Assembly (NCBI GenBank): GCA_028289445.1 | Contig: JANQPO010000021.1 | Coordinates: forward strand, 186,001-250,000 | From: Tepidamorphaceae bacterium | Lineage (GTDB): Bacteria; Pseudomonadota; Alphaproteobacteria; Rhizobiales; JAKSCL01 | DNA: 64,000 nt | Direction: 5' to 3' | Part shown: positions 7,806 to 64,000 of the stretch, piece by piece | Position numbering within the stretch: the first letter of the stretch is position 1 | Layout of the letters: every line of letters starts with the position of its first letter | The notes under the pieces: generated by a model | Told to the model about the DNA's origin: nothing | The model's input: only the letters and a program-made list of their open reading frames with translations | Database searches by the model: none | Program-made: the position numbers and the translations under genes

Positions 7806-7819
7806 GGCGGGCGACACGC

Positions 7820-10162: not shown

Positions 10163-10197
10163 GATTCAGCATTCCAAATTTCATGGAATGCTGAATC
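10163..10197. terminator. Perfect 14-bp stem-loop after dctP of TRAP system 1
   Basis: GATTCAGCATTCCA at 10163-10176 pairs perfectly with 10184-10197 around a seven-base loop, 25 bases after the binding-protein stop. No T-run follows on either strand, so it may stabilise the 3' end of the message or act as a factor-assisted terminator rather than a classic intrinsic one. Confidence 0.55.
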
Positions 10198-10476: not shown

Positions 10477-11310
10477 TCAACCAGGGAACTGTTTCACCTG
10501 CCACTCGCGGCCCTCGAGCATGTCTTCAAGCGACCCGAAGGCGTTCATGTAATGCCCGGTAAACCCGGTGGTTTCGACGCGACGGAACATGTCGGTCCAA
10601 TCAATGATCCCCGTGCCGGGCTTCATGTGAAGCTCGTATTCGCCGTTGTTGTCAGCCATTCGGACTTCTCCTAGGCGGTCGACCGGACCGCCGTCGAGGA
10701 AGCCGGCGATGCCCTCGGGGACGAGCGTCGCGTGATTGATGGTGAAGGACCATCCAAGGTTCGGCGAGGCGATCCGGTCGAAATACCAGTTCGTTTCCTC
10801 CAGGTTGTGGGCGAGGTAATGGACCTCGGCGCGATCCGGTTCCCAGTTGGTGTTCTCCAGAAGCAGTATCGCGCCCTTTTCCTCGGCATAGCCCACGATC
10901 CGCTTCAACCGTTCAAGGCCCGCTTCCATTCTTTCGGAAACGTCGTCGGTGAAGTGATATCCGGCATGAATGACGATCCACTTTGCGTCGAGGCGTGCGC
11001 AGGCGTCGATATAGGCCTTGAGGTAAGCGTCGACCGCTTCGTCGACGTAAGGCGAGAACTCAGCAACATTGACGGCCGAGAGCGTGTGGAGCCCGAGTTG
11101 CACCCCCGTTTCAGCGCAGCGGTCGCGGATTGGTGCGGAGCGCGCGTCGTTGAAAGACTTCAAGGCATTGGGCGCGATGTCGATTTGACAGTCGATATAG
11201 GTCACCTCGTTGGCGACGGCCCAATCAACGGCATCCTCGACGGAGAGCTTGCGCCCGCAATCGACACCGATCCGGTCGCGGATCGAGAGCGTTTCGGTCT
11301 TGTCCGTCAT
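10477..11310 (-). CDS. Sugar phosphate isomerase/epimerase-family TIM-barrel protein
   Basis: 277 residues of the xylose-isomerase-like/AP endonuclease 2 fold. Metal-site landmarks are WIVIHAGYHF (His), ILLLENTNW (Glu), a late His-Asp-like segment VRMADNNGEYELHMKPGTG and a C-terminal acidic segment. Such proteins isomerise, epimerise or dehydrate sugars and cyclitols with a divalent metal. The ATG at 11310 follows GAGGATTACA; an in-frame start at 11346 lies within the upstream permease. It is nine bases after the TRAP system 2 large permease, so it is probably the enzyme of that import operon, acting on a polyol or sugar acid. Confidence 0.82.
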   Translation of the reverse strand: MTDKTETLSIRDRIGVDCGRKLSVEDAVDWAVANEVTYIDCQIDIAPNALKSFNDARSAPIRDRCAETGVQLGLHTLSAVNVAEFSPYVDEAVDAYLKAYIDACARLDAKWIVIHAGYHFTDDVSERMEAGLERLKRIVGYAEEKGAILLLENTNWEPDRAEVHYLAHNLEETNWYFDRIASPNLGWSFTINHATLVPEGIAGFLDGGPVDRLGEVRMADNNGEYELHMKPGTGIIDWTDMFRRVETTGFTGHYMNAFGSLEDMLEGREWQVKQFPG

Positions 11311-47503: not shown

Positions 47504-48475
47504 ATGTTTGAAGTCGTGCTGCGCCGCCTGGTTCAGGCGGTCAGCGTCGTGTTGGTCCTGTCACTGGTAAGCTTCATCGGCGTCTACAAGATCGGCGATC
47601 CAGTGCAGTTGCTGGCGCATGAGGGCGCGACGGAACAAGAGATCGAGGACGCCCGCGCGCGGCTGGGCTTGGATCGACCCGTTCATCAACAATATCTCAC
47701 CTTTGTCGGACGAATGGCGGTCGGGGATTTCGGCACCTCATTCGTCTCCAGCCGGCCGGTGGTGGACGTGATCGTCGAACGCCTCCCTGCCACTATCGAG
47801 CTGACGCTGGCCGCATTCCTGATATCCGTTCTGATGGGCTTGCCGCTTGGTATCGTCGCCGGCCTTTATCCAGAGGGTCCCTTGGCGCGTACGATCATGG
47901 CCGGGTCCATTCTCGGGTTCAGCCTGCCGGCCTTTTGGTTCGGCATGATGATGATCATGTTCTTTTCAGTTGATCTCGGCTGGCTCCCATCCATCGGTCG
48001 CGGCGAGACGACCCGCTTCCTTGGGGCGGACTGGGCCGTCTTCTCCCTCGACGGCTGGTCCCATCTCATCATGCCCGCCCTCATGCTGTCTTTGACCACC
48101 GTCTCCCTTGTCATTCGACTGGTGGCCTCCGGCATGCGCGAAGCGATGATGACCGACTACGTGAAGTTTGCTCGACTCAAGGGCTTGTCGGAGCGGCGCG
48201 TGGTACTGCTTCATGCCTTGAAGAACGTCATGATCCCCGTGGTTACCGTTCTCGGCTTGGAGATCGGCAGCCTTCTGGCGGGGTCTATCGTGACGGAAAC
48301 CGTGTTTGCCTACCCGGGCATCGGCAAGCTCCTGATCGACTCCATCAACCGTCTCGACCGACCGGTGATCGTCACCTACCTCATCCTCATCGTTCTGTTC
48401 TTCGTCGTCATCAACTTGATTGTCGATCTGATCTACACCGCGCTCGATCCGCGTGTGCGGGGCACGCTGCGATGA
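47504..48475 (+). CDS. Oligopeptide-type ABC importer permease, DppB-like (importer B)
   Basis: 323 residues with six membrane helices; N-terminus MFEVVLRRLVQAVSVVLVLS and coupling loop DYVKFARLKGLSERRVVLLH near residue 220. ATG 47504 follows TGGAGGCGAC; the in-frame ATG at 47480 is inside the hairpin. Confidence 0.92.
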   Translation: MFEVVLRRLVQAVSVVLVLSLVSFIGVYKIGDPVQLLAHEGATEQEIEDARARLGLDRPVHQQYLTFVGRMAVGDFGTSFVSSRPVVDVIVERLPATIELTLAAFLISVLMGLPLGIVAGLYPEGPLARTIMAGSILGFSLPAFWFGMMMIMFFSVDLGWLPSIGRGETTRFLGADWAVFSLDGWSHLIMPALMLSLTTVSLVIRLVASGMREAMMTDYVKFARLKGLSERRVVLLHALKNVMIPVVTVLGLEIGSLLAGSIVTETVFAYPGIGKLLIDSINRLDRPVIVTYLILIVLFFVVINLIVDLIYTALDPRVRGTLR

Positions 48476-49365
48476 GTGTCGTAGAGTACGAGATTGACCG
48501 GCCCTTGGTCCGGTTCTGGCTTGAACTTTCGAGAAGCCGGCTCGCCGTGGTGGGTCTGGTTTCGACTACAGCGTTGGTGCTGGTCGCGATACTGGCGCCG
48601 ATCATCGCCCCGCAGAATCCTTACGACCTGACGCAAATCGATTTTCTTGACGGCGAACTCCCGCCGCTGTCGATCAGCCCGTCCGGACAAACCTATTGGC
48701 TCGGCACCGACGCCCAGGGCCGGGACATGCTGAGTGCCATCATCTTTGGCCTGCGTGCCAGCTTCACCGTCGCGTTCTCTGCCGGCGCGCTGGCGCTCGT
48801 CGCCGGCACCACGCTCGGCCTGATCGCTGCCTATGCGCGCGGCCGGATCGACACGATCGTCATGCGCCTTGCGGAAATACAGATGAGCTTTCCCGCGATC
48901 TTGCTGGCGCTGATGCTGTTGGCGGTGTTCGGCCGCGGGATCGACAAGACCATCATCGCGCTGGCGCTTGTTCAGTGGGCGTTTTATGCGCGCACCGTCC
49001 GTGGCGCGGCCATCGCCGAACGTGAAAAGGAGTATGTGCTGGCGTGCCGCCTTTTGAAGTTGCCGCGTTGGCGTATCCTGGTCTCTCACCTGCTGCCGAA
49101 TGTCTTGCCTCCCTTGCTGGTGATCGCCAGCGTCCAACTGGCGTCGGCGATCACGCTTGAGGCGACTTTGTCCTTCTTGGGCCTTGGGCTGCCGCTGACC
49201 GAACCGTCCCTCGGTCTGCTGATCGCCAACGGCTTCGATTACATCCTGTCCGGCCAAGGCTGGATCAGCTTCTATCCCGGCGTCGCGCTGCTGATTGTCA
49301 TCGTGTCGATCAACCTGTTGGCCGATCGGTTGCGTGAGATGAGTAATCCGAGGCTGAAGCGATGA
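48472..49365 (+). CDS. Oligopeptide-type ABC importer permease, DppC-like (importer B)
   Basis: 297 residues. The motif YWLGTDAQGRDMLSAIIFGL near residue 75 and the coupling loop EYVLACRLLKLPRWRILVSH near 185 identify it. Its ATG overlaps the DppB-like stop (ATGA). Confidence 0.92.
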   Translation: MSVVEYEIDRPLVRFWLELSRSRLAVVGLVSTTALVLVAILAPIIAPQNPYDLTQIDFLDGELPPLSISPSGQTYWLGTDAQGRDMLSAIIFGLRASFTVAFSAGALALVAGTTLGLIAAYARGRIDTIVMRLAEIQMSFPAILLALMLLAVFGRGIDKTIIALALVQWAFYARTVRGAAIAEREKEYVLACRLLKLPRWRILVSHLLPNVLPPLLVIASVQLASAITLEATLSFLGLGLPLTEPSLGLLIANGFDYILSGQGWISFYPGVALLIVIVSINLLADRLREMSNPRLKR

Positions 49366-50360
49366 CCTCACCTGAAGCGGATCAAGACGGTCCTGTCTTG
49401 GATATCCGGGATGTTTCGATCGTTTTTGATACGGCCGGGGGAATCTTGCCGGCGGTCGATGGTCTGAACCTTCGCGTCAACCGTGGTGAGGTGCTCGGTC
49501 TTGTCGGCGAGTCCGGGTCGGGCAAGAGCCTGACGGGCTTCGCGATCATGGGCGCACTCGATCCGCCGGGCCGCGTCGCAGAGGGGCAGATCCTGTTCTG
49601 CGGCGCGGACCTGACTCAAATGTCCGATGCCGAACTCCGGCGGCTGCGTGGCAATCGCCTGGCCATGATCCTTCAAGATCCCATGCTCACGCTGAATCCG
49701 ACGCTCACGATCGGCACGCAAATCATCGAGGCGATCCGAGCACATCGCAGCGTGTCTCAAAGCGAGGCCCGCGCACTGGCCGTGCAGGCTATGCAGACCG
49801 TCGGTATCGGAGAACCGGAGCGCCGGCTTAGCTCCTATCCGCATGAGTATTCGGGCGGCATGCGCCAGCGTGTCGCCATTGCTATCGCCTTGCTCCATAC
49901 GCCCGATCTGATCATTGCCGATGAACCGACCACCGCCCTTGACGTCACGGTACAGGCGCAAATCCTGCTTGAAGTCCGGCGGCTGGTCGAGGCTTTGGGT
50001 TCGGCTTGGATTTGGATCAGCCACGATCTCTCGGTCGTTGCCGGCTTGGCGGACCGCATCGCCGTCATGTATGCCGGTAGGATCGTGGAAGAGGGGCCGA
50101 CCGAGGCCGTTCTCCGCCACCCAAAGCATCCCTATACGCGCGGATTGCTGCAAAGCGCGCCGGAAAACCCGCCATTGGACGATGGCAAGCTTTGGCAAAT
50201 CCCCGGCAGCGCGCCGTCCCTCGCCAATCGCGTCACTGGCTGCCGTTTCCGCCCGCGCTGCCCACGCGCCGACGAGGCATGCGGCACGCAGCCGCCGGAC
50301 CAGGGTCAGCAACATCGCTTCGCCTGCTGGCATGCCTATGACGAGGCGCTTGGGCAATGA
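49362..50360 (+). CDS. Oligopeptide-type ABC importer ATPase, DppD-like (importer B)
   Basis: 332 residues with Walker A GESGSGKS, Q-loop MILQDPMLTLNP, signature YSGGMRQRVAIA, Walker B LIIADEPTTALDVT and the C-terminal cysteine motif GCRFRPRCPRADEAC, closed by a final FACW. Those cysteines are typical of peptide-type ATPases and, in some structures, hold an Fe-S cluster. Overlaps both neighbours by four bases. Confidence 0.93.
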   Translation: MTSPEADQDGPVLDIRDVSIVFDTAGGILPAVDGLNLRVNRGEVLGLVGESGSGKSLTGFAIMGALDPPGRVAEGQILFCGADLTQMSDAELRRLRGNRLAMILQDPMLTLNPTLTIGTQIIEAIRAHRSVSQSEARALAVQAMQTVGIGEPERRLSSYPHEYSGGMRQRVAIAIALLHTPDLIIADEPTTALDVTVQAQILLEVRRLVEALGSAWIWISHDLSVVAGLADRIAVMYAGRIVEEGPTEAVLRHPKHPYTRGLLQSAPENPPLDDGKLWQIPGSAPSLANRVTGCRFRPRCPRADEACGTQPPDQGQQHRFACWHAYDEALGQ

Positions 50361-51349
50361 CCGCCGCCTTGCTCACCGCGCGCGGCGTTACCAAGCGCTA
50401 TTCGCACAAGCCGGACGTGATCGACCGCGGCCTGATAGCACTGGGATTAAAGGCGCCCCCGGATGTCGTGCAAGCCGTGAACGGTATCGACTTGGATATC
50501 TTGCCAGGCGAAATCTTTGGTCTGGTGGGAGAGTCCGGGTGCGGGAAATCAACGCTGGGCCGCCTGCTTGTCGGCTTGGAGGTGCCGGACGGTGGCGCCA
50601 TCACGTTCGAAGGCAAGCCAATTCAAGACAAGGGCGAGCCGGCTCACATTGCCGTGCAGATGGTGTTTCAGGATGCCGCAGCAACGCTCAATCCGCGTCG
50701 CATCGTGGGAAGCCAACTCGCCGAAGCCCCACTCGCGCATGGCCTCGTATCACGCGACGTGGCGCCGACATTTGTTGCCGACCTGCTGCAACGCGTGGGA
50801 CTCGAGCCGGCGGCCGCAAGACGCTATCCGCATCAATTCTCCGGCGGGCAACGACAGCGCCTCAACATAGCAAGGGCGCTCGCTGTCAATCCGCGATTGA
50901 TCGTTTGCGACGAGTCGGTGGCTTCGCTTGACCTGTCCGTCCAAGCCCAGGTTCTCAACCTGCTCTTGGAGCTTCGTCGGCGAGAAGGATTGGCGATCGC
51001 ATTCATCAGCCATGATCTCGCCGTCGTTCATCGCATAGCCGATCGCGTGGCGGTGCTCTATCTCGGCCGGATCGTTGAGCTGGGAACTGCCTCCGAGGTC
51101 TTCAAAGCCAGCCGGCATCCCTACACCCAGGCGCTCAACGCCAATCGCCTTTCGCTCGATGGTGGCCTGGAAAAACTCACCGTTCTACCAGGCGAGCCGC
51201 CGTCTCCGGTGTCCCTGCCGAGCGGATGCGCGTTTCATCCGCGTTGCCCGAAAGCAGTGGCGGCTTGCCGCGAGCAAACACCGGATCGCTTTCCGCAAAG
51301 CGGTGGACACTGGGCAACGTGCTTTCGTCAGAGCGAGGACCTTACCTGA
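50357..51349 (+). CDS. Oligopeptide-type ABC importer ATPase, DppF-like (importer B)
   Basis: 330 residues. Walker A GESGCGKSTLGRLL, signature [17 protein letters not shown]-terminal GCAFHPRCPKAVAAC and ATCF. The Walker B segment reads LIVCDESVASLDLSVQAQ, with Ser instead of the usual Pro after the catalytic Glu, which should still be active. Last gene of the importer B operon; convergent with the class V enzyme gene, only 28 bases away. Confidence 0.92.
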   Translation: MTAALLTARGVTKRYSHKPDVIDRGLIALGLKAPPDVVQAVNGIDLDILPGEIFGLVGESGCGKSTLGRLLVGLEVPDGGAITFEGKPIQDKGEPAHIAVQMVFQDAAATLNPRRIVGSQLAEAPLAHGLVSRDVAPTFVADLLQRVGLEPAAARRYPHQFSGGQRQRLNIARALAVNPRLIVCDESVASLDLSVQAQVLNLLLELRRREGLAIAFISHDLAVVHRIADRVAVLYLGRIVELGTASEVFKASRHPYTQALNANRLSLDGGLEKLTVLPGEPPSPVSLPSGCAFHPRCPKAVAACREQTPDRFPQSGGHWATCFRQSEDLT

Positions 51350-51377: not shown

Positions 51378-52673
51378 CTATGCAGACGCAAGGCTTCCGG
51401 TCGCCCCCTGAGCGCCCCGTTCCTTGGTGATCTCTGGCAGAGTAGCCAGCAACTTAGCCACCTCACGTTCCGTGTTGTAGTGACACAAGGAAATCCGAAT
51501 GCAGTCTGTCATGCCGAGCGGGGACAGGACATTCCCGCTGTAATGATCCGCTTTGCGCGTATGCGTCCGGATGCCTTGGGCATTCAGCGCGCTGACCACC
51601 TCTTCCGATGACATCCTATCGACGACTATGGACACCAAGCCTTCACGCGCTGGATTATCGGCACCCCCTAGAATGGTGACATTTTCCAGATCGCGCAGTC
51701 CTCGAAGATTGCCAGTGCCGTTGATCATGGCATTGCTCAGATGGGTTTCGTAGGCGTGAATGGCACGACCGGCCGCTTCGATCCGCCTGCGCTGGTCGGT
51801 TTCCTCCGAAACCTCCCCGCCGAGCCAGCCGAAATAGGCCACGACGTCGGACAGGGTGGCGTAAGAACCGGTGTCTCGTGTCCCGAACTCCCAACCTGTC
51901 GCGGGTGCGTCGATCAGCATGTCATGCGGAAGCGCGCTTAGTTTGTCTGAGATCCAGGCGATGCCGTAGCCGTGGCGCGAGAACACCTTGTAGGGCGAAA
52001 TCGCATAGCCATCGACATTATAGGCGTCCAAATCCAACTGCCCGTGTGCGGCATGTTGGATTCCATCGACGATGATCAGACAGTCCGGCGAAACCTCACG
52101 GATCGCTGCTGAAATCGCGGCAACATCCATGCCCATCCCCGTCACGGGCGAGGCGTGCAGGATCGTGGCCACCGCAACATCGGGCGTCATCAAGGCGCTG
52201 TAGTCGGCGGCGGTGACAAGACCCGTGGCATTGTCATGAGGCACATTCACGTACTCCAAGTCCGCAATTCCAGCCCAGCGGCGGGCGGCACTGCGAGAAG
52301 CGGGGTGTTCGATGGATGAGCCAATCAGCTTGGCGCCCTTCGGCGCGCTGAGACAAGCCGTGCGGATCATGCGGAACAGCAGCTCCGTGCCACTTTCGCC
52401 GGCAAAAAACTGACCCGAGGTCGCGTTCATGAAAACCGCCAGGTCCGCTTTGGCTTTGTTGATCACGTCTTGTGTGCACTGGCCTGCTGGATTGATCCGG
52501 CCCGGGTTGTCCGGGATCGCCGCATAAAATCCGGATGTCTCGACAACGGACTTCAGCGTCAGCGCACCTCCCGCGTTCTCAAAGAAGATGCGATCGCCCT
52601 GAAACGGACAACTGTCTACATGCGCAAAACGGTTACGAATCTCGGCCAAAAGGCGCGGGTTGTCTTGAATCAC
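51378..52673 (-). CDS. PLP-dependent class V aminotransferase-fold enzyme (cysteine desulfurase/IPN epimerase-like)
   Basis: 431 residues. The class V segments FFENAGGALTLKSV (30-43), GSSIEHPASR (118-127), IIVDGIQHAAHG (200-211) and the PLP lysine K229 in SPYKVFSRHGYG are intact. Similar proteins act as cysteine desulfurases, selenocysteine lyases, isopenicillin N epimerase-like enzymes or C-S lyases. The start is a GTG with AGGAT about 12 bases upstream. Last gene of the leftward TRAP system 5 operon, 33 bases after the amidotransferase stop. Transamination, racemisation or C-S cleavage cannot be separated by eye. Confidence 0.85.
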   Translation of the reverse strand: MIQDNPRLLAEIRNRFAHVDSCPFQGDRIFFENAGGALTLKSVVETSGFYAAIPDNPGRINPAGQCTQDVINKAKADLAVFMNATSGQFFAGESGTELLFRMIRTACLSAPKGAKLIGSSIEHPASRSAARRWAGIADLEYVNVPHDNATGLVTAADYSALMTPDVAVATILHASPVTGMGMDVAAISAAIREVSPDCLIIVDGIQHAAHGQLDLDAYNVDGYAISPYKVFSRHGYGIAWISDKLSALPHDMLIDAPATGWEFGTRDTGSYATLSDVVAYFGWLGGEVSEETDQRRRIEAAGRAIHAYETHLSNAMINGTGNLRGLRDLENVTILGGADNPAREGLVSIVVDRMSSEEVVSALNAQGIRTHTRKADHYSGNVLSPLGMTDCIRISLCHYNTEREVAKLLATLPEITKERGAQGATGSLASA

Positions 52674-52706
52674 AGCTGGGGATCCTGTCGCGGCCGTAGA
52701 TGCTGT

Positions 52707-53423
52707 CTAAGAAACCGAGGTTTGCGGGGTCGTGATCATTTCAAGAAAATTCTCGAGTACCGAAAATCCGAGATCGGAGGTGAAGCATTGCGCGAGGTAA
52801 CCCTCCACATCATGACCGTTGTTTTCAAACCTGAGCCGGTTCTGTGAAAGCCAGGCGCGCAGGTCGGACTCTGCCATTTCCGGATGCGGTTGAACTCCCC
52901 AAACCGGGCCATTGGACCAGCGCCAGAGGTGATTGCCGCAGCCCGCGCCTTCCGCCAGAACGATGATCTCCTCGCGCTTCGCCACAACTTCATCGCCGTG
53001 CCAGTGATAGACATCAAAGCGGTCGGGCAGCTTCTGACAAAGCGGATCGTTCTGCGCCGCCGTGCTCAGCGCAATCGTGCCGCGCCCGCCCTCATGTGCT
53101 GTGCGCTTGAACACCGTGTCACGGCCGACCAGAGCAGAAGCCAGCACTTGACAACCAAAGCATAGCCCGATCATGGGGATTTGCGACGCAGCGAGCTCAG
53201 GCAGCAATTTGTGCAAGCGATGCACCCAGGGCAGATCATCGTAGGCTCCATCGAAACTTGGGCTGACATAGACGCCGCAATAATCATGGCCTGACGGGAA
53301 CTCATCCAGATTGGTTCTATAGGTTTCAACGGTCAAACCGCTGTTCGCAATGGCCCGGTCAAACCGGGTCTCGGGCTGCGGCGCGTGCCAATTGTCAAGA
53401 TAAAGGAACGGCTTCGCCATCAT
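52707..53423 (-). CDS. Class I glutamine amidotransferase-like protein (gamma-glutamyl hydrolase-type fold)
   Basis: 238 residues, a stand-alone GATase1 domain. The nucleophile C88 in IGLCFGCQVLA and the H180/E182 dyad in GVQPHPEM form a complete catalytic triad. A YHWHGDEV stretch (139-146) matches the GMP-synthase-like glutaminase group. Stand-alone members include PuuD-like gamma-glutamyl hydrolases, so removal of a gamma-glutamyl or similar amide group is plausible. Starts inside the HyuB stop (four-base overlap). Confidence 0.85.
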   Translation of the reverse strand: MMAKPFLYLDNWHAPQPETRFDRAIANSGLTVETYRTNLDEFPSGHDYCGVYVSPSFDGAYDDLPWVHRLHKLLPELAASQIPMIGLCFGCQVLASALVGRDTVFKRTAHEGGRGTIALSTAAQNDPLCQKLPDRFDVYHWHGDEVVAKREEIIVLAEGAGCGNHLWRWSNGPVWGVQPHPEMAESDLRAWLSQNRLRFENNGHDVEGYLAQCFTSDLGFSVLENFLEMITTPQTSVS

Positions 53424-55159
53424 GCCGACCGATCCATCTGCATGCGCTGCGCCTGAGTTGCGACCAGATCGACGTGCAGATCCTCCGTCAGAACAACGCC
53501 ATAGTCGTCACGCGCGGCTTGGACCGTGATCAGATCGTCAAGCACATCTTGCCGCACCAACTCCGCATCACGCGTCATGGGGTCGCCATAGCCGCCGCCG
53601 CCAGGCATCTCCAGCACTAGCTTCTGGCCATAGGGCACCGTTTGGCGCCCCTTGCTTTTCAGCGGCACGCCTGAGTCACTGCGCACAACGCCTGCTGCAC
53701 CGTCGAGACCCCCATGACGGCCCTTGGGCGCTTGCCATGTACGATCGAACATTGCGGCTATGCTGAACGGCGCGCCGTCTTCGCAGCCGAACTCCAGAAC
53801 CTGACCAAGCCCACCGCGAAACGCGCCCGCGCCGCCGGAGCCTTCGCGAAACTCCTTGCGCCATATGATCAACGGGTACTGCGCCTCGATCGCCTCGACC
53901 GGCGGTGTGCGCACACCAGAGGGGAAGGCGGTCGTCGACATGCCATCCAGCGTCGGTCGCCCGCCAGTGCCGCCGGTGTTGAAAGTGATCACATCGAAGT
54001 CCTTGGTCAGAACGGGTGCGCTTGCCGCCACCTCCGGGTCGACCGCAGTCTTGCCGCCGCGGAACATCGGGTTCCACATGGCTCCGGCCCCCTCGGCGGG
54101 TACCCTGTCCGGAGCGGCCTGCGCCAAGCATCCAAACACCAAATCGGGCAGCATCTGCCCAATAACGTGACGAGCCGAAACCGGCATGGGCCGCTCTACA
54201 TTCAGGATCGAACCCAGCGGTGCACGCACATCCACCACATTGATGGAGCCCGCATTGCAAGGGACTTCCGGACCGACGATGCAGTTCACACCGAACACCG
54301 TATAGGCAATACAGAAGTTCATGACCACGTTGATGCCGAACAGGCTTGCCTCCGACGTGCCATCGTAATCAATGCTCAACTGGTCGCCTGAGATGGTCAG
54401 CTTTGCCTTCAGGCGGATCGGGTCGGTGAAACCGTCGAGTTCCGTTTCGTTTTCATAGACGCCATCCGGCAGTTCGCGGATCGCGTTGCGGATCGAATCC
54501 CGGGACTGGGCAATAATGTAGTCGCCCACCTCCTCGATATCGTCGAGTTCAAACTCTTCCAGGATCGACACCAGCCGCCGCGCGCCCTCGTCATTGCAGG
54601 TCATCATGGCGTAAAAATCGCCTTCCATGTCCCGCGCGTTTCGCACATTGGTGCGCAAGAGGCCCATCAGGTCTTCGTTCACCACGCCCTCGCGCGCCAG
54701 ATGCATTATGGGGATATTGACCCCTTCCTCATAAACCTGCCGGCTATCCGGACCGAAGCCGCGTCCGCCCATGTCCACGATGTGGCAAGTATTGGCCAGC
54801 AGCCCAACCATCCGATCTTTGTAAAACGCCGGGGTCACCACGGTCACATCATGATAGTGCCCGACCGATAGCCACGGATCGTTGGTACAAAAGACGTCAC
54901 CGGGTTTCATCTCATCCACGGGGAACTTCTCGATGAAGTGTTTGACGCAGATGGCCATGGCGTTCACGTGGCCCGGCGTTCCGGTCACAGCTTGCGCCAC
55001 CATATCGCCGCGGCGGTTGAACACCCCCGCCGAGAGGTCGCCGCATTCGCGGACCGATTGGCTGAAGGCCGTCCGAATGACCGTCTGGGCTTGTTCTTCA
55101 ATGGCGGAAATCAGCCGGCTCCAGATCAGCTGCTTACGAAGAAGTTCAAGCTCTTTCAT
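53420..55159 (-). CDS. hyuB: Hydantoinase B/oxoprolinase-family subunit (HyuB)
   Basis: 579 residues, standard HyuB length. The N-terminal LIWSRLISAIEEQAQTVIRT, GTPGHVNAMAICVKHFI and C-terminal EMPGGGGYGDPMTRD are family marks. HyuB pairs with HyuA for ATP-dependent opening of hydantoin, 5-oxoproline or related cyclic amides (or, in acetone carboxylase relatives, carboxylation). Its start overlaps the HyuA stop by 14 bases. Confidence 0.92.
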   Translation of the reverse strand: MKELELLRKQLIWSRLISAIEEQAQTVIRTAFSQSVRECGDLSAGVFNRRGDMVAQAVTGTPGHVNAMAICVKHFIEKFPVDEMKPGDVFCTNDPWLSVGHYHDVTVVTPAFYKDRMVGLLANTCHIVDMGGRGFGPDSRQVYEEGVNIPIMHLAREGVVNEDLMGLLRTNVRNARDMEGDFYAMMTCNDEGARRLVSILEEFELDDIEEVGDYIIAQSRDSIRNAIRELPDGVYENETELDGFTDPIRLKAKLTISGDQLSIDYDGTSEASLFGINVVMNFCIAYTVFGVNCIVGPEVPCNAGSINVVDVRAPLGSILNVERPMPVSARHVIGQMLPDLVFGCLAQAAPDRVPAEGAGAMWNPMFRGGKTAVDPEVAASAPVLTKDFDVITFNTGGTGGRPTLDGMSTTAFPSGVRTPPVEAIEAQYPLIIWRKEFREGSGGAGAFRGGLGQVLEFGCEDGAPFSIAAMFDRTWQAPKGRHGGLDGAAGVVRSDSGVPLKSKGRQTVPYGQKLVLEMPGGGGYGDPMTRDAELVRQDVLDDLITVQAARDDYGVVLTEDLHVDLVATQAQRMQMDRSA

Positions 55160-57278
55160 GTCGGTCGCAAACCTCCCTGGCCAGAGCGCGCTTTGCGGTG
55201 CGCGACAATTCGATGTCGCCGCCCTCTAGCGTGCGGGCCTCAAAAACCGAGGAGACCACGATAGAGGTCTCCTTTTCGGTGATGATGGCAGGGCCAGCGA
55301 TAGGGCCCACCGTTGGCAGGCTGTCCCGCGGCACGATGACAAAATCGAGCTCGGTCTCGCTTGCGCTGTCGAATGCCTTGCGCGATCCACGGGCAATGCT
55401 GTCGACGGCCCCCGACGCGCTGGCGGTCACGTCCGTGTAAGGATCGGTCGTAACGGTCACTGCGAGGCTGACGATCTCGCCTTTCGCGATGTTGCCGATG
55501 TTGCGGCCGAAGACGACGTTGTATTCGGCATCGAAGAGGTCCTGTAGCGTATTGGCGGCGCCTGGCCCAAGTGGTCCTTCGGGCAGAGCGACAGAGATTT
55601 CGTGCCCTTGCCCGTGATAGCGCATGTAAGCCACCCGGTGGGTCATCAATTTGGCATCGGCCTGCGCGCCCAGTTTCACATTGGCTTCGGCCCGCACCTC
55701 CATCTGGTCCAGTGCTGCGTTGGCGGCCGCGACATCGAATTGATCGAGCTGCTGATAGTGGGTCTGGACGACTTCGTAAGAGATCGGCGCGCGCAGAAAC
55801 CCCACAGCGGAACCAACCCCTGCGTTGGCAGGAATGATGATCTGGTCAATGCCCAGCTTATCGGCCATCTGGCAGACATGGAGCGGAGCGGCCCCGCCAA
55901 AGGCGATCAACACGCGATCATCAGCGTTTTTTCCGCTTTCGATCGCATGGACCCGCGCCGCACTGGCCATGTTTTCGCAGACCATTTCGGTCACGCCATA
56001 GGCGGCCGCGAGGGGTCGCATGCCCAAGGGTCTTGCCACGGCTTCCGTCAAGGCGGTTTCGGCGGCGTGGCTATCAAGTTCCATCGAGCCGCCTGCGAAC
56101 CCGACCGGATCGATCCGGCCAAGGGCGAGGTTTGCATCAGTCACGGTCGGCTCCGCACCACCCCTTCCGTAGCAGGCCGGACCAGGCATCGAACCGGCGC
56201 TTTCAGGGCCGATCGCCAAACGTCCCAAGGCGTCGATATGGGCAATGGACCCACCGCCGGCCCCAATCTCCACCATGTCGATGACGGGGATGCGCAACGG
56301 CAAGCCGCTGTCCTTTCGGAATCGGTACACCCGTGCGACCTCGAAGCGGCGACTTGTTTGCGCATTGTAGTCGTCGATCAGGCAGATCTTGGCGGTTGTA
56401 CCGCCCATGTCGAATGAGATTGCCTGCTCAACGTTTAGACGTCGCGCCACGTCGCAGGCGAAAATCGCCCCTCCCGCCGGACCGGATTCGATCAGCCGCA
56501 CTGGGACTTTCCGTGCCGTCTGAACGGTAGTCAGGCCACCACTGGAAAGCATCATCAGCATCTCACAGCCATAGCCCGCCGCCTTCAGCCGTTCCTGGAA
56601 CTCGGCGAGGTACTTCGAGACCTGAGGCTGAACATAGGCATTGGTGCAGGTGGTCGAGAACCGCTCGAACTCGCGAAACTCTGGCGATATGTCTGATGAA
56701 ATCGAGATCAGCCAAGCGGGCCTTCTGGCCGCGAAGAACTCCCGAGCCGCTTTCTCGTGAGCCGGATTAACATAGGCGTGGAGAAAACATATCGCCAGCG
56801 CTTCGGTCCCGGCATTGTCGAGTTCTGGCAGAAGCGCTTCAAGTTCGGCTTCATTCAGCGGCCGTAGTGCGTCACCAGCGCTGTTCAGGCGTTCGGAAAC
56901 AGTAAACCGGCGGCGACGGGGCACCAGCGGTTCGGGCTTTAGGATGTTGACATCATATTGTTCCGGGCGACCCTCAGTCCCGATTTCGATGACATCGCGG
57001 AACCCTTGTGTGGTTACCATCGAGGTTACCGCACCCTTGCGTTCGATCACCGCGTTCGTGGCCAAGGTCGTGCCGTGAACAATAACGTCAATGTCGCCAG
57101 GCTTGATCCCGGCCTCTGAGACCACCTGATCCAGGCAACTCATGCAGGCATCAACCGGATTGTCGAGCGTCGTCAGGAGCTTTGCCGTAAATCGGATGCC
57201 TTTGGTTTCCAGCGCAACATCCGTAAAGGTTCCGCCAATATCAACTCCAACGCGAACCTGCGTTGCTGCGCTTTGCAT
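55146..57278 (-). CDS. hyuA: Hydantoinase A/oxoprolinase-family subunit (HyuA)
   Basis: 710 residues. An N-terminal ASKHA-type nucleotide site GVDIGGTFTDVALETKG (12-28), a second glycine-rich part SFDMGGTTAKICLID near 290 and a catalytic-domain segment MVEIGAGGGSIAHID near 335 are present. It is the ATP-binding partner of HyuB and acts in the cytoplasm. The ATG at 57278 follows GGGAGCGAAACAC. Confidence 0.92.
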   Translation of the reverse strand: MQSAATQVRVGVDIGGTFTDVALETKGIRFTAKLLTTLDNPVDACMSCLDQVVSEAGIKPGDIDVIVHGTTLATNAVIERKGAVTSMVTTQGFRDVIEIGTEGRPEQYDVNILKPEPLVPRRRRFTVSERLNSAGDALRPLNEAELEALLPELDNAGTEALAICFLHAYVNPAHEKAAREFFAARRPAWLISISSDISPEFREFERFSTTCTNAYVQPQVSKYLAEFQERLKAAGYGCEMLMMLSSGGLTTVQTARKVPVRLIESGPAGGAIFACDVARRLNVEQAISFDMGGTTAKICLIDDYNAQTSRRFEVARVYRFRKDSGLPLRIPVIDMVEIGAGGGSIAHIDALGRLAIGPESAGSMPGPACYGRGGAEPTVTDANLALGRIDPVGFAGGSMELDSHAAETALTEAVARPLGMRPLAAAYGVTEMVCENMASAARVHAIESGKNADDRVLIAFGGAAPLHVCQMADKLGIDQIIIPANAGVGSAVGFLRAPISYEVVQTHYQQLDQFDVAAANAALDQMEVRAEANVKLGAQADAKLMTHRVAYMRYHGQGHEISVALPEGPLGPGAANTLQDLFDAEYNVVFGRNIGNIAKGEIVSLAVTVTTDPYTDVTASASGAVDSIARGSRKAFDSASETELDFVIVPRDSLPTVGPIAGPAIITEKETSIVVSSVFEARTLEGGDIELSRTAKRALAREVCDRHERA

Positions 57279-57368
57279 GTGTTTCGCTCCCTGAATCGCA
57301 TTTAGCGAAATTATCGCGTGCCCTCAGTCATTTGTGATCTTTTTTGCGAGCCGGGGTGACAAAATTGG

Positions 57369-58061
57369 TCACCACTCGTAACCGTCTGTGGCCATGATGA
57401 GATCACTGTACCGATCGAAGAGCCTTGCGCGCCAACCCGCGACAGGATCATGCGCGCACAACGGCTGAAACGGTGAGGTTCCCCGGATCCACAAAAAGAG
57501 TGCGCCGAGGATGTAGTCGCTGTATCCGGGCTCAGTGCCGTTGAGAAACGGCGATTGGGCGAGAACGGCACGCATCGGCTCCAGATGCGCGCTTAGGTCC
57601 TGGGTGAGGGCGGTGCGGTTGAGAGCGGCTTCCTCCAGACTGCAACCTAGCCGCGCTTCGCGCGTCTTGCGATAATGGGTTTGCTCCTCCGGCAGGATCT
57701 TGGTGATAACGTCGACGGCGATCATCGGCAAAATGATAGGGTAGAGAACGCGAGGTACCCAGGCGTTGAGATACGCCGCAAAGGCTATCTGCCCGTCATC
57801 TGCAAAAAGCGGAACCTTTGCGGGAAACGTGGCATGCATGTAAAGCGCGATTTCCCAGCTGTCGGTCACCACATCCCCGCCCAAAATCAGCACCGGCGCT
57901 TGAGTATGATCGCTCACCCCAGCCAGCGCTGACTTGTCCAGAAACGTGATCTCGCTTGTCTCATAGTCCAGCCCAAGATGAGCAAGTGCCAGCTTGGTGC
58001 GCCAGGCATAGGGGCTAAATCGGTGGCGGCCCTTGCCGCCAAAGTCCACAAGCCGAATCAT
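57369..58061 (-). CDS. Glutathione S-transferase-like protein
   Basis: 230 residues. An N-terminal thioredoxin-like half with the start SPYAWRTKLALAHLGLDYET (16-35) carries a Ser/Tyr at the place of the GST activating residue, then the glutathione cis-Pro segment QAPVLILGGDVVTDSWEIAL (74-93). The C-terminal half is helical. Family resemblance to beta-etherase/maleylacetoacetate isomerase-like GSTs suggests thiol addition, removal or isomerisation. A GGTGAC/GTCACC inverted repeat overlaps its stop (57355-57373). It is coupled by ATGA to the AraC-type gene. Confidence 0.8.
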   Translation of the reverse strand: MIRLVDFGGKGRHRFSPYAWRTKLALAHLGLDYETSEITFLDKSALAGVSDHTQAPVLILGGDVVTDSWEIALYMHATFPAKVPLFADDGQIAFAAYLNAWVPRVLYPIILPMIAVDVITKILPEEQTHYRKTREARLGCSLEEAALNRTALTQDLSAHLEPMRAVLAQSPFLNGTEPGYSDYILGALFLWIRGTSPFQPLCAHDPVAGWRARLFDRYSDLIMATDGYEW

Positions 58062-59074
58062 TCTTCACGCCGCTCTTCAACGAGCTGGCGGCTCTTTCGC
58101 CTGTCATCGGTGGGCGAACAGGCGAATTCTTTTCGGTAACTGCGAAAAAAATGCTCGGGCGAGCGAAACCCGCTGGCGAGCGCCACTTGTGTAGCGGGCA
58201 TATCTGTTTGCTGCATCAGTCGCCGCCCATGCTGCAACCTAAGGCGCCGATAGTATTGCACCGGTGTCACTTGAAAATGTTCCCTGAACAGCCGCGTGAG
58301 CGATCTCTGCGAGATGCTGGCCCGCGTGGCTAGATCCACGATGCTGAGCGGATCTTCGATATGGGTCTCCATTTCCTCGACGACGAAGCGCAACGAGGTC
58401 TGGGCCACCCCGACCCGAGCTCGCCGCATGCGGGGCAATTTGGTTTCAGGTCGGCCCATTTCTCCCGCGATGAACAGGTCTGCGACCTCGGAGGCAAGAT
58501 CCTGTCCGAAATGAACGGCAATGGCGTGCAGCATTAGGTTCATGGTCGCCGTCCCGCCGGCGCAGGTGAAGCGGTTGCGGTCAATCTCGAACGTGTTGCG
58601 TGACAGGCGGATCTTGGGAAAACTCTCCAGAAAGCTGTCACGATAGTTCCAGTGGATCGTTGCAGAGTATCCGTCTAGCAAACCGGCTTGGGCCAGAAAC
58701 AGCGCCCCGGCGCCCGCCGCACCAAGATGCGCACCCTGTACGACAAGTCGGCGCAGCCAGTTGGCGAGTGCTGGGGGTACCTCCATCAACGGATCGAATC
58801 CGATGAACATAAAGATGTTGTCGGCGTGCTGAATGTCTCTTGTGGCGGCGTCGACCTCAAACCGCATCCCATTGATCGCGGTGACCGGTTTACCGTCATC
58901 GGAAATGAGGCGGGTTTCGAAAAGAGTCCTGCCGCTGGCTAGGTTGGCAATGCGCAGCGGGTCCAGCGCGTTAATGAAAGGGACGAGCGTAAAGCGATCG
59001 CCAATGTAGAAGTCGACCCGTATCGGCTCTTCCTGCGATCTACGACGAAACACATACGCCATCGCAGCATCCAT
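58058..59074 (-). CDS. GlxA-family AraC-type regulator (DJ-1/PfpI domain plus HTH)
   Basis: About 338 residues. The N-terminal half (20-190) is a DJ-1/PfpI-like GATase1 fold (DFYIGDRFTLVPFINALDPL, GAHLGAAGAGALFLAQAGLL; the usual nucleophilic Cys position appears as Ala). The C-terminal half has an AraC double helix-turn-helix (DLATRASISQRSLTRLFREH then ALASGFRSPEHFFRSYRKEF). ATG 59074 overlaps the TRAP large-permease stop by one base; GTG 59101 is possible. GlxA-type regulators often control quaternary-amine or amino-compound catabolism. Likely activator of its own operon. Confidence 0.9.
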   Translation of the reverse strand: MDAAMAYVFRRRSQEEPIRVDFYIGDRFTLVPFINALDPLRIANLASGRTLFETRLISDDGKPVTAINGMRFEVDAATRDIQHADNIFMFIGFDPLMEVPPALANWLRRLVVQGAHLGAAGAGALFLAQAGLLDGYSATIHWNYRDSFLESFPKIRLSRNTFEIDRNRFTCAGGTATMNLMLHAIAVHFGQDLASEVADLFIAGEMGRPETKLPRMRRARVGVAQTSLRFVVEEMETHIEDPLSIVDLATRASISQRSLTRLFREHFQVTPVQYYRRLRLQHGRRLMQQTDMPATQVALASGFRSPEHFFRSYRKEFACSPTDDRRKSRQLVEERREE

Positions 59075-60381
59075 CAGCGGTCCATTGTGGAGGGTAACCA
59101 CAAGGCCACCTGCGGGAAGATCGTGACGATGGCCGCGCCCGCGATTAGCAGGAAGAAGAATGGTAGGGCTGCGCGGGCTACACGGAAAATGCTGTGGCCT
59201 GTGAGGCCCTGGATCACAAAAAGATTAAACCCAAGGGGCGGAGTGATCTGTGCGGCTTCGACCACGATGATCACGAAGATGCCGAACCAAATCAGGTCAA
59301 AGCCCGCTTGCGACACCAGTGGCAACACTACCGCCGTGGTCAAAACGATCATAGAGATCCCTTCGATGAAGCAACCCAGGATCACATACAAGACGCAGAG
59401 TGCGATCATCAGCGTGTAGGGATGCAGGTCCATCCCGCCAACCCAGCTCGCCAGGGCGGCCGGGATGCCCAGATAGGCAAAGGAGGTGGTCAGGAAGGCC
59501 GCCCCCGACAGGATCAGGAAGATCATGCAAGAGAGCTGCGTCGCGCTCATCAGACTATCGGCCAGCATCCTGAGGCTTAGGGTGCGGGACCAGGCTGAGA
59601 GGATCAGCGATCCGAGAACTCCGCCCGCCGCGGCCTCGGTCGCGGTGGCGATGCCGCCATAAATCGATGCGATCACGCCCGAGATGAGCAGCATGATCGG
59701 GAACAATCCCTTGGAGCGGCGCAGCTTTTCGGATAGCGAGAAGCGTTCCATCAGCCCTGGCGCGACATCGTTTGAGAGCCAAGCGCGTACCACGATAAAG
59801 CCCGAAAACAGCGCCATGATCATGAGCCCCGGAAAGACGCCAGCCAGAAACAACCGCACAATCGAGACATCCGCCGCGACGCCGTAAACGATCATGATGA
59901 TCGATGGCGGGATCAACAGCCCCAGCGTGGCCGAGCCCGCAAGACTGCCGATCGCCAGGGTTCGGTCATAGCCAAGACGGTGGAGCTCCGGCAGCGACAT
60001 CCGCCCCACGGTCGCACAGGTCGCCGCGGATGAGCCGCAGACGGCGGCAAAAAAACCGCTGCCCACCACGTTCACATGCAGCAATCGTCCCGGTAGCCAG
60101 CCAAGCCAGGGAGTAAGCCCCCGAAACAAGGTCTCCGAGAGCTTGGCCCGAAACAGGATCTCGCCCATCCAGATGAAGAGCGGCAGAGCCGCCAGCGACC
60201 AACTAGCATTGGTTTGCCAGATTGAGGTGGCAAGGGATTTCTCGACCGGGACAGAGGTAAAAAACGTCAATCCAACCCAGCCGACCCCCAAAAGCGACAG
60301 CGCAATCCACATCCCCGATCCCAAAAAAAGGAACAGGAAAAAGACTATTGTTAGCGCGATCTGGGTGGTTTCCGGGGACAA
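59074..60381 (-). CDS. TRAP transporter large permease, DctM-type (system 5)
   Basis: 435 residues, about 12 membrane helices. Marks are FFAAVCGSSAATCATVGRMS, GLLIPPSIIMIVYGVAADVS and YGGIATATEAAAGGVLGSLI, slightly different from the other four DctM proteins here, placing it in another subgroup. Ten bases after the small-permease stop. Confidence 0.92.
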   Translation of the reverse strand: MSPETTQIALTIVFFLFLFLGSGMWIALSLLGVGWVGLTFFTSVPVEKSLATSIWQTNASWSLAALPLFIWMGEILFRAKLSETLFRGLTPWLGWLPGRLLHVNVVGSGFFAAVCGSSAATCATVGRMSLPELHRLGYDRTLAIGSLAGSATLGLLIPPSIIMIVYGVAADVSIVRLFLAGVFPGLMIMALFSGFIVVRAWLSNDVAPGLMERFSLSEKLRRSKGLFPIMLLISGVIASIYGGIATATEAAAGGVLGSLILSAWSRTLSLRMLADSLMSATQLSCMIFLILSGAAFLTTSFAYLGIPAALASWVGGMDLHPYTLMIALCVLYVILGCFIEGISMIVLTTAVVLPLVSQAGFDLIWFGIFVIIVVEAAQITPPLGFNLFVIQGLTGHSIFRVARAALPFFFLLIAGAAIVTIFPQVALWLPSTMDR

Positions 60382-60391
60382 GGCTGCTGTC

Positions 60392-60916
60392 TCAGTCCGA
60401 ATGCACGTCCGCGGACTCTTCGTTCTCCGCAGCCAAGACGTAGCTGGGAGACTTCCCGAAGATCAAGCTCAAGAGATCGTCGAGAATGGCGATGGCCAAA
60501 ATGGTGGCGCCGATGGGGATAGAGATTTGCGGAATCCAGAGCGGGATGTTGATCAGCCCCTGGGTCAGATCGTTGAACCGGATCGAATCCCGGACCATAT
60601 CCATTGAGGAGTAGGTGAGATAGCCGGTAAAGAACAATCCGACGACCAGCACTGTGAGTTCCATCGCCCTTTTGAAACGGCCTGCCTTTTCGATGATCAG
60701 CGTGACCCGGATGTGACGGCCGTTTCGAAAGGTATAGGCAAGTGGCAGAAAACCCGCGGCAACCACACTCCAGGCGGTCAGATCATCCGCACCTTTGACC
60801 TGTACGCCCATCTGGCGCCCGAATACCTGGATACAGATCAAAAGCCCAATGGCGACGATGAACAAGGCTCCCAGCAAAGCTGCGCTAAAATAGAGAGTAT
60901 CCAGAATTTTGCGCAT
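60392..60916 (-). CDS. TRAP transporter small permease, DctQ-type (system 5)
   Basis: 174 residues, four membrane helices. Central motif FGRQMGVQVKGADDLTAWSV (33-52) replaces the more usual WSEE form, again pointing to a separate TRAP subgroup. Between the binding-protein and large-permease genes; this is the one TRAP spacer after dctP in which I found no strong hairpin. Confidence 0.85.
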   Translation of the reverse strand: MRKILDTLYFSAALLGALFIVAIGLLICIQVFGRQMGVQVKGADDLTAWSVVAAGFLPLAYTFRNGRHIRVTLIIEKAGRFKRAMELTVLVVGLFFTGYLTYSSMDMVRDSIRFNDLTQGLINIPLWIPQISIPIGATILAIAILDDLLSLIFGKSPSYVLAAENEESADVHSD

Positions 60917-60976
60917 GGGACTTGCACACCGCCGCCGCGGGTAGAGATTGGACTTTCGAGGGCCGTGAGCTAGAGC

Positions 60977-61954
60977 CTACTCAAGCGCCTGATACGCCTC
61001 GTAGAACGCCGCCCCTTCGTCGCCGGCCTTGGCCAGCCATTCCTGAACCATCGTGGCGCCGATGTCCTTCAATTCCGTCATCAGAGCATCATTGGGGGCA
61101 TCGACGGTCATCCCATTGGCGATAAGGTTAGCCGTGAGCTCCGACTGTACGTCGTTCGACATGATCCAGCCCCGGGCTTCTGCCTTGGCCGCCGCCGCCA
61201 GGATCGCCGCCTGGTGGGCTTCGGACAGCCCGTTGAACGCATCGGCATTCATAATGACCATGTTTTTGTTGTTCATCGCGTTCACGTCATAGTAGTGCGA
61301 TGTGAAATCCCAGGCCTTTGTGTAGTTGCCAGTCGCAGCCGAGGTGATCATCGCGCTGACGACGCCTGTCGCGAAGGCTTGCGGAACTTCTGCGGATTGC
61401 ACAGTCGTCGGCACAGCCCCCATCAGTTCGGCAAACCGCGCGGTTAGCGCGTTGTAGGCGCGGAATTTGACGCCTTCGTAGTCCGACGTGGAGGTGATTT
61501 CCTTCTGCGCATAGAGCCCTTGCCCCGGCCACGGCACGGAGAACAGCGGCATCAGACCCTTCTCCTCAAGGCGCGCAGAAATATGCGGCAGCGTGAGTTC
61601 ATAGACCTGCCAAGCCGTCTTCTGGCCCTGTGACAGGAACGGAATGCCGTCGACCTCGAAAAACGGGCTTTCCTGGCCGTAGGCAGAAAGCAGGATCTCG
61701 CCCACCTGGACCTGACCGGTTTGAACGCCGCGCATGATCTCGGGCATCTTCAAAAGCGACGCGCCGGTGTGCAGCGTGAAGGTCACTTCGCCATCGGTCG
61801 TCTTCTCAACATCCGCTGCAAACTGCGCGATGTTCTGGGTGTGGAAATTGGTGTCCTGATAGGCCGTGGCAATCGAGATGTTCGTCTGCGCTAACCCTGC
61901 GGTCGCGAGCAGAGAAAACCCGATGGTGGCGGCAATACATGTCAGTTTTTTCAT
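60977..61954 (-). CDS. TRAP transporter solute-binding protein, DctP-type (system 5)
   Basis: 325 residues. Signal peptide MKKLTCIAATIGFSLLATAG is cleaved near LAQ. Mature DctP segments are GEILLSAYGQESPFFEVDGI, GVKFRAYNALTARFAELMGA (Arg in the usual carboxylate-binding place) and FATGVVSAMITSAATGNYTK, the latter in place of the usual DGQENP segment. ATG 61954 has GGGGA ten bases upstream. First gene of the nine-gene leftward operon. Confidence 0.9.
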   Translation of the reverse strand: MKKLTCIAATIGFSLLATAGLAQTNISIATAYQDTNFHTQNIAQFAADVEKTTDGEVTFTLHTGASLLKMPEIMRGVQTGQVQVGEILLSAYGQESPFFEVDGIPFLSQGQKTAWQVYELTLPHISARLEEKGLMPLFSVPWPGQGLYAQKEITSTSDYEGVKFRAYNALTARFAELMGAVPTTVQSAEVPQAFATGVVSAMITSAATGNYTKAWDFTSHYYDVNAMNNKNMVIMNADAFNGLSEAHQAAILAAAAKAEARGWIMSNDVQSELTANLIANGMTVDAPNDALMTELKDIGATMVQEWLAKAGDEGAAFYEAYQALE

Positions 61955-62836: not shown

Positions 62837-63862
62837 TCAAGAAGCGGTATCCTCGCCGCAATCGATCCCGGTGGAGTCCGGCGGATGATGGAGATGACAT
62901 GCGACCTTGCGGGCACTCCGTTGGCACTGTTTCAGTTTCGGTATCGATGTCTCGCATACCTTGCCGATCTTCATCGGGCAGCGCGGGTGGAAGGCGCAGC
63001 CGGGCGGCGGGTCGATCGGCGAGGGGACTTCGCCTTCAAGGACGATTTCCTCGCGCGCGATGTCTGGGTGGCTGGGTAGTGCTGCTGAGAACAGGGCCTT
63101 GGTGTAGGGGTGGAGAGGTTCGGCGAAGAGTTCTCTTGTCGGCGCGATTTCGACGATCCGGCCGAGATACATCACGGCGACCTTGTCCGCCATATAGCGG
63201 GTGGTGCCCAGGTCATGAGCGACCATGATGTAGGACATGCCGAATTCGGCCTGTAGGTCCTTGAACAGGTTCATGATCTGTGAGCGGATCGAGACATCGA
63301 GTGCCGACACGGGCTCGTCCAGCACGAGAAGTTTGGGGTCAGAGATGAGGGCGCTCGCGATCGCTATGCGCTGGCGTTGACCACCGGAGAACTCGTGCGG
63401 GAAGTTGCGGGCCTGTTCCGGTCGAAGCCCGACCGCCGACAGGACATTGGCGACTTTTTCCCGCACCTGCACACTGCTGACCTTGTGGTTCACGACCAGC
63501 GCTTCCGAGACGATATCGTAGACGCGCATGCGCGGGTTCAGAGAGGACCAGGGATCCTGGAAAACGGCTTGAACATCCACGCGAAACTGCCGCAACTCCT
63601 CACCATCGAGCGCGTGCACATTCTTACCGTCCATCTCCACGGTACCGCTGGTCGGTGTTTCCTGGCGCAAGATCAGTTTGGCCGTCGTCGACTTGCCGCA
63701 ACCGGACTCACCGACAAGTGCCAGCGTCTCGCCCGCTTCAAGCGCGAGATCGATCCCGTCCACGGCGTGTACGTGACCCACGACCTTCTCGCGGATCAGT
63801 CCCTTGGTGACCGGGAAATGCTTAGTCACGGACTCAAGCTTCAGGATCGGCTCGGCGTCCAT
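62837..63862 (-). CDS. Oligopeptide-type ABC importer ATPase, DppF/OppF-like (importer C)
   Basis: 341 residues. Walker A GESGCGKSTTAKLIL, signature [16 protein letters not shown], Walker [13 protein letters not shown], switch VAHDLGTTRYM and the C-terminal cysteine motif GCAFHPRCPMKIGKVC are present. ATG 63862 follows GGAGGATACGG and overlaps the upstream ATPase stop by 22 bases. Last gene of an importer that continues beyond the right edge. Confidence 0.92.
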   Translation of the reverse strand: MDAEPILKLESVTKHFPVTKGLIREKVVGHVHAVDGIDLALEAGETLALVGESGCGKSTTAKLILRQETPTSGTVEMDGKNVHALDGEELRQFRVDVQAVFQDPWSSLNPRMRVYDIVSEALVVNHKVSSVQVREKVANVLSAVGLRPEQARNFPHEFSGGQRQRIAIASALISDPKLLVLDEPVSALDVSIRSQIMNLFKDLQAEFGMSYIMVAHDLGTTRYMADKVAVMYLGRIVEIAPTRELFAEPLHPYTKALFSAALPSHPDIAREEIVLEGEVPSPIDPPPGCAFHPRCPMKIGKVCETSIPKLKQCQRSARKVACHLHHPPDSTGIDCGEDTAS

Positions 63863-64000
63863 TCCGTATCCTCCAGCGCCCAACAGCTCGCGCAGTGTTG
63901 CGTGCCCGCCGGACTTTCGTAGGTTGGCGGGTAGTCGGCCTCGCACTTAGACATGGCTTGGTCGCAGCGGGGCGCGAACCGACATCCCTTCGGCATGTCC
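63841..64000 (-). CDS. Oligopeptide-type ABC importer ATPase, DppD/OppD-like C-terminus (importer C), cut by window edge
   Basis: The last 53 codons of a leftward gene read DMPKGCRFAPRCDQAMSKCE and end ASCWALEDTEWTPSRS before a TGA at 63841-63843. The GCRFAPRC cysteine motif with a final CASCW is the standard C-terminal end of DppD-type ATPases. It overlaps the next ATPase gene by 22 bases. The start lies outside the window. Confidence 0.85.
   Translation of the reverse strand, partial: DMPKGCRFAPRCDQAMSKCEADYPPTYESPAGTQHCASCWALEDTEWTPSRS

Follow-up and report, generated by a model that had tools for sequence, protein, structure and literature searches.

What does a bacterium take up when the genes for a complete tripartite ATP-independent periplasmic (TRAP) importer share an operon with those for a HyuA/HyuB-type ring-opening enzyme (HyuAB), a glutamine amidotransferase-like hydrolase (GATase1), and a class V pyridoxal 5'-phosphate (PLP) enzyme? 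The question is raised by positions 51378-61954 of the window, that is, the whole stretch of 64,000 nucleotides that we analyzed from a Tepidamorphaceae bacterium (assembly GCA_028289445.1, contig JANQPO010000021.1, positions 186,001 to 250,000). We favor, at a probability of roughly 0.55, the reading that this nine-gene operon specifies the catabolic import and ring opening of a pyroglutamate-like cyclic amide with a carboxylate, followed by PLP-dependent breakdown; we infer that the substrate is 5-oxoproline, a substituted 5-oxoproline, or a carboxy-hydantoin.

The operon is real. Its nine open reading frames (ORFs) are co-directional on the minus strand and densely packed, an ORF check confirmed their placement, and all nine gene families score above the curated Pfam cut-offs. 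From the dctP end, the genes are:

60977-61954, minus strand: dctP, TRAP substrate-binding protein of the DctP6/DctP7 subfamily (PF03480; best PDB sequences 2pfy, 2pfz, and 6wgm)
60392-60916, minus strand: dctQ, small TRAP membrane subunit (PF04290, 7.8e-25)
59074-60381, minus strand: dctM, large TRAP membrane subunit with a TTG start (PF06808, 3.6e-80; TIGR00786 above cut-off)
58058-59101, minus strand: GlxA-type AraC regulator (DJ-1/PfpI and HTH_18 in Pfam; closest NCBIfam model GbdR, 268 bits against a cut-off of 480)
57369-58061, minus strand: glutathione S-transferase (GST)-like protein, distant kin of beta-etherases (GST_N/GST_C; NF042997, 111.8 bits; PDB 4yam, 6.7e-24)
55146-57278, minus strand: hyuA, ATP-binding subunit, of the ATP-dependent lactam/hydantoin hydrolase type (PF01968, PF05378, and motifs)
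53420-55159, minus strand: hyuB, metal-binding subunit of the predicted ring-opening enzyme (PF02538, 3.8e-146, and metal residues)
52707-53423, minus strand: GATase1, stand-alone class I glutamine amidotransferase-like hydrolase (PF00117; C88-H180-E182)
51378-52673, minus strand: PLP enzyme of class V (fold type I), from a family associated with HyuAB (PF00266; K229; alignments, structure model, and fold search)

The start of dctP is an ATG, and an in-frame GTG extends its ORF to 62035. Gaps of 60 bp (dctP/dctQ), 10 bp (dctQ/dctM), 90 bp (GST/hyuA, the largest in the operon), and 33 bp (GATase1/class V) are interspersed with overlaps of 28 (dctM/glxA), 4 (glxA/GST), 14 (hyuA/hyuB), and 4 bp (hyuB/GATase1). 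An earlier note, made from the letters alone, had described nine leftward genes in this order that overlap or lie fewer than 100 bases apart, and both the ORF coordinates and the Pfam matches agree. Pfam and NCBIfam also identify DctP, DctQ, and DctM as a complete TRAP importer.

The cluster is not confined to its source strain, which answers the earlier note's call to look for the gene order elsewhere. An uncultured Ruegeria (L007/L151, genome G394) carries all nine genes in identical order at 70-91% protein identity; a HyuB search of 395 Rhodobacteraceae genomes located one further carrier (G471, L150), with an operon (dctP-dctQ-dctM-hyuA-hyuB-GATase1-PLP) that has seven of the nine genes in matching order, contains neither a GST nor a GlxA-type regulator, and has a dctM-hyuA spacing of 245 bp. 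Chance is excluded as an explanation of the gene order because the full order recurs in Ruegeria and seven genes of it in G471. Elsewhere in the class, HyuB reaches at most 56% identity in our sample (here and below, genome samples are an even draw per group, not exhaustive, and neighboring ORFs in the compared loci were called with simple scripts), and gene searches centered on G311 and G118, limited to small groups, found nothing. Of the 80 loci that a contig scan with the PLP enzyme brought up, the Ruegeria locus L007 among them, almost all have roseobacter-type (Rhodobacteraceae) titles. RpoB is 72.6% identical between the host and Ruegeria and the operon proteins up to 91%; the closer relationship of the operon proteins suggests that the operon moved between lineages. 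For every gene, including those for the GST and GATase1, the ratio of nonsynonymous to synonymous substitution rates between these two copies is 0.04-0.15 at high synonymous divergence, the signature of lasting purifying selection; this maintenance, which we extend to all three copies, is counted in favor of a catabolic pathway for a pyroglutamate-like compound.

What the operon imports is indicated by DctP. Its PDB sequence matches are led by 2pfy (6.3e-81, 276 bits), 2pfz (2.1e-79, 271 bits), and 6wgm (2.3e-67), and the next family falls to 74 bits; 2pfy and 2pfz are Bordetella TRAP binding proteins (DctP6/DctP7) crystallized with pyroglutamate (PMC5812351). The RAY of the KFRAYN motif in DctP aligns with the RAY of 2pfy and 2pfz, the WPxQG motif is likewise conserved, and a conserved arginine of DctP proteins binds the ligand carboxylate (PMC4646407). 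By these alignments, DctP is a member of the pyroglutamate-binding DctP6/DctP7 subfamily. It shares with the Bordetella pertussis proteins (2pfz, 2pfy) full-length similarity (E about 1e-80) and both motifs; unlike them, it is encoded with intact membrane genes beside HyuAB, GATase1, and a PLP enzyme.

The genome contexts of the subfamily point the same way. We compared 40 loci of the DctP subfamily (two in the host, the other 38 in further genomes of the class) with 86 control loci around the PLP enzyme, all of which share the PLP gene and so are not random genome windows. Within about 10 kb, hyuA and hyuB occur together in 12 of 40 subfamily loci and in 1 of 86 controls (p=2.9e-6), and pxpA and pxpC in 4 of 40 and 0 of 86, respectively (p=0.009); in 11 of the 12 loci with hyuA and hyuB, the two are joined in one ORF of 1,211-1,385 codons, and a single fused HyuA-HyuB chain is the architecture of 5-oxoprolinase (PMC8453981). 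Because its members adjoin fused 5-oxoprolinase-type or PxpABC genes far more often than the controls do, this distribution favors a ligand of the pyroglutamate type when the subfamily is taken as a whole. Racemase-family genes are present in six of the 40 loci. The two host loci (G000 C10:132823-133734 and C15:130320-131291; L168, L195) encode additional pyroglutamate-subfamily TRAP binding proteins, one of which adjoins racemase-family and D-amino-acid-dehydrogenase-like genes.

The enzyme next in line is predicted to open a ring. In alignments, HyuA retains the D13xGGT, D290xGGT, and PGP365 motifs, as in caprolactamase, and D41, H101, D104, and H126 of HyuB align with Asp41/His99/Asp102/His124 of CapB; in caprolactamase, loss of these residues abolishes activity (PMC8453981). 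HyuAB thus keeps, as judged from the aligned residues, the intact ATP and metal motifs of the ring-opening HyuAB/CapAB enzymes. Its best PDB match is N-methylhydantoinase, and hydantoinase and caprolactamase score above the homologous subunits of acetophenone and acetone carboxylases. With the CapAB caprolactamase and N-methylhydantoinase structures (6yra, 7hk5, 9h03), HyuAB has in common the HyuA/HyuB modules and both sets of motifs, but it falls far under the NCBIfam cut-offs for CapA and CapB (NF050156/NF050157; 453 and 216 bits against 1000). HyuA (710 aa) and HyuB (579 aa) are separate ORFs, not a fused chain of the OPLAH type. The 11 loci in which a fused 5-oxoprolinase adjoins a TRAP importer resemble the operon, whose importer is of the same subfamily and also neighbors a ring-opening enzyme, but the HyuAB of the operon is unfused, belongs to a different clade in the HyuB tree, and is joined by GATase1 and the PLP enzyme. 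Since HyuB lies outside the clade of fused, TRAP-linked enzymes, we do not call HyuAB a 5-oxoprolinase; its substrate may be pyroglutamate or a relative, and the unfused architecture and separate clade suggest that the ring is perhaps that of a relative and not of pyroglutamate itself. The closest free-standing HyuAB relatives (51-56% identity, L221-L240) have no common neighborhood that we could find, and enzymes of this clade may thus act on several substrates.

The class V enzyme has, in its structure model (pLDDT, the predicted local distance difference test score, 84.7), the SufS-type cysteine-desulfurase fold (fold type I), with K229 as the PLP lysine; a fold search with the model returned SufS-type chains at Z about 38-41, a list (VIA-align) that is evidence of fold only and not of function. 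A role as cysteine desulfurase was rejected, the catalytic loop cysteine being missing: the C-terminal loop reads HTRKADHYSGN, and in an alignment of the window protein with 12 homologs (42 to 86% identity; 96 invariant positions) the consensus HxRxxDxYSG has no cysteine in 13 of 13 sequences. The model for the cysteine desulfurase-like VC1184 family (TIGR01976) reaches 156 bits against a cut-off of 352. FGM3 and UstD are the top PDB sequence matches; SufS-type desulfurases, UstD, and FGM3 all share the fold and the PLP lysine with the operon enzyme, but identity is about 20% and the HxRxxDxYSG loop without the desulfurase cysteine sets it apart, and a mechanism derived from UstD/FGM3 (C-beta to C-gamma cleavage) was rejected, identity being too low to transfer it.

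In some other genomes, too, this enzyme lies near HyuAB. In a class-wide sample, homologs at 42-49% identity have HyuAB within 6 kb in six of six fetched loci; as two of the six (G030, G161) come from one family, these represent five independent families. Among the other fetched loci of that sample (55-79% identity), HyuAB occurs in none. One of the six distant loci (L215, G016 C3, 9021-15630) is an independent operon in which genes for a substrate-binding protein, RidA, HyuA, HyuB, and the PLP enzyme share a strand beside a divergent GntR-type regulator gene; in L217, RidA is upstream of HyuAB and the PLP gene faces them. In the tree, HyuB of five of these loci (L216-L220) forms a clade separate from that of the operon, so HyuAB and the PLP enzyme seem to have become partners, or to have been brought back together, more than once. 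The family is common in marine roseobacters, where annotations call it just an aminotransferase class V-fold enzyme. Closer homologs adjoin genes for DUF4392 D-glutamate-cyclase-like proteins, and the many further copies in unrelated contexts mean that the enzyme is not restricted to the role of HyuAB partner. In one set of roseobacters (L008-L022 and L117, CP081100.1), a close homolog is the last gene of an operon for a class III aminotransferase, an aldehyde dehydrogenase, a TIGR03576-like PLP protein, and DUF4392 that adjoins either a trimethylamine-methyltransferase-family gene or FAD-GcvT oxidoreductases and represents another uncharacterized pathway; a plasmid of Leisingera methylohalidivorans (L118, NC_023146.1) has, in a row, genes for a TAXI-TRAP importer, a D-amino-acid-dehydrogenase-like protein, an Asp/Glu racemase-family protein, and a class V enzyme. 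A link to homarine was looked for in the roseobacter contexts and none was found.

The remaining enzyme, GATase1, is by its alignment to GMP synthase subunit A a class I glutamine amidotransferase with an intact Cys-His-Glu triad (C88, H180, and E182, in conserved motifs); it matches gamma-glutamyl peptidase 1 weakly (2.1e-6). No close relative outside the host was found in a class-wide sample of 289 genomes, and the closest relatives are 35-38% identical. The nearest plasmid relative (38%), from the marine Rhizobium sp. SSA_523 (L121, NZ_CP129381.1, about 7000-10900), adjoins PxpABC and lies between PxpA/PxpC-like and M24 peptidase-like genes, as assigned from their sequences; this context is a suggestive clue to function. 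Neither the GST nor the GlxA-type regulator is present in the G471 copy, which keeps the other seven genes; both are therefore accessory and lie outside the operon core. A beta-etherase role for the GST was rejected (NF042997, 111.8 bits against a cut-off of 440), as was a 31% match to a GST in the tda-gene neighborhood of a Phaeobacter plasmid, judged too distant.

Oligopeptide/dipeptide-type ATP-binding cassette (ABC) transporter genes, judged from ORF sequences only, occupy both flanks of the operon (48472-51349, plus strand; 62837-63946, minus strand); the first of these, an oligopeptide-type operon, converges on the nine genes and ends 28 bp away, at 51349.

Taken as a pathway, DctPQM would import the cyclic amide acid, and HyuAB would spend ATP to open the ring, with an activated intermediate formed in HyuA and hydrolyzed at the metal site of HyuB, to yield a glutamate-family amino acid. 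GATase1 could then take off a gamma-glutamyl group or a gamma-amide. The class V enzyme, which is no cysteine desulfurase, would act on the freed amino acid, and a lyase reaction with an enamine or imine as its product is the likeliest; the order of these last two steps is a guess. RidA hydrolyzes enamine and imine products, and RidA accompanies the class V enzyme in two of the distant loci described above. Also counted in favor of the scheme are the D-glutamate-cyclase-like and racemase-family neighbors of close class V homologs and the PxpABC genes beside the Rhizobium GATase1 relative. Several points weigh against this scheme. HyuB is outside the fused TRAP-linked clade, inside which the host has another enzyme (L001), and nothing specific therefore points to the hydrolysis of plain 5-oxoproline; the DctP ligand is presumed from that of the subfamily; at 35-38% identity, the context of the GATase1 relatives may not transfer; and the PLP reaction is a prediction, for which the link to RidA comes from other loci and not from the operon.

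The same host enzyme and the same tree bear on one alternative, the scavenging of 5-oxoproline itself to glutamate, with a glutaminase role for GATase1 and a general glutamate-using one for the PLP enzyme. It agrees with the DctP subfamily and with the oxoprolinase genes linked to other members of that subfamily, but HyuAB is unfused and from another clade, the host already has a member of the TRAP-linked clade, and the specific HyuAB-PLP linkage is left unexplained; we consider it unlikely, with some weight. A hydantoin with an acid side chain (e.g., hydantoin-5-propionate), opened by HyuAB to an N-carbamoyl amino acid that GATase1 or another enzyme would decarbamoylate, has a smaller chance. 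It would suit the N-methylhydantoinase match and the M20 hydrolase gene that, in addition to PxpABC, lies near the Rhizobium GATase1 relative, but neither an N-carbamoylase nor a hydantoin racemase has a Pfam match among the nine genes, which also means that the operon does not match the known hydantoin pathway (HyuA, HyuB, N-carbamoylase, racemase), and we know of no carbamoylase activity in class I GATases.

A route that takes apart a glutathione conjugate or a sulfur compound of the gamma-glutamyl type, in which the GST, gamma-glutamyl removal by GATase1, and C-S cleavage by the class V enzyme would cooperate, draws on the presence of a GST, an intact GATase1 triad with similarity to gamma-glutamyl peptidase 1, and a PLP enzyme of desulfurase fold. 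We regard it as improbable: one of the three operon copies has no GST, which weakens the idea, the six distant PLP-HyuAB pairs have no relative of the operon's GST or GATase1 at the thresholds used, a Cys-Gly dipeptidase is lacking, and the desulfurase cysteine is replaced, although C-S lyases can do without such a cysteine. Less probable still, and very much so, is an ATP-dependent carboxylase resembling those for acetone and acetophenone in an operon that degrades a ketone or ketoacid; HyuAB is homologous to the subunits of those enzymes, but hydantoinase and caprolactamase outscore them and the importer subfamily points to pyroglutamate. The earlier note's proposal that the operon imports and takes apart a glutathione- or gamma-glutamyl-derived sulfur compound or a (thio)hydantoin is thus divided: its 5-oxoproline/hydantoin half gains from a pyroglutamate-binding importer subfamily often found beside oxoprolinase genes and from the motifs kept in HyuAB, and its sulfur half loses ground.

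For the pathway that we favor, the import and opening of a pyroglutamate-like ring, the parts are familiar, but no description of the whole appears to exist; an open-access search found no paper on this gene combination, which does not prove that none exists. We tentatively propose, at somewhat less than even odds, that it is an undescribed route: a TRAP importer would bring in a pyroglutamate-like cyclic amide, a HyuAB that is no oxoprolinase would open it, and a new, cysteine-free class V PLP family, which repeatedly partners HyuAB, would cleave the product. Pyroglutamate and other cyclic amides arise spontaneously from glutamate and glutamine, according to a passage in PMC13274462, and the genes for their use are often named merely hydantoinases or aminotransferases. 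Through the operon, one clade of HyuAB is linked with a family of PLP enzymes and with a defined subfamily of importers; the ligand of one soluble protein could thus reveal what a class V family frequent in marine roseobacters does.

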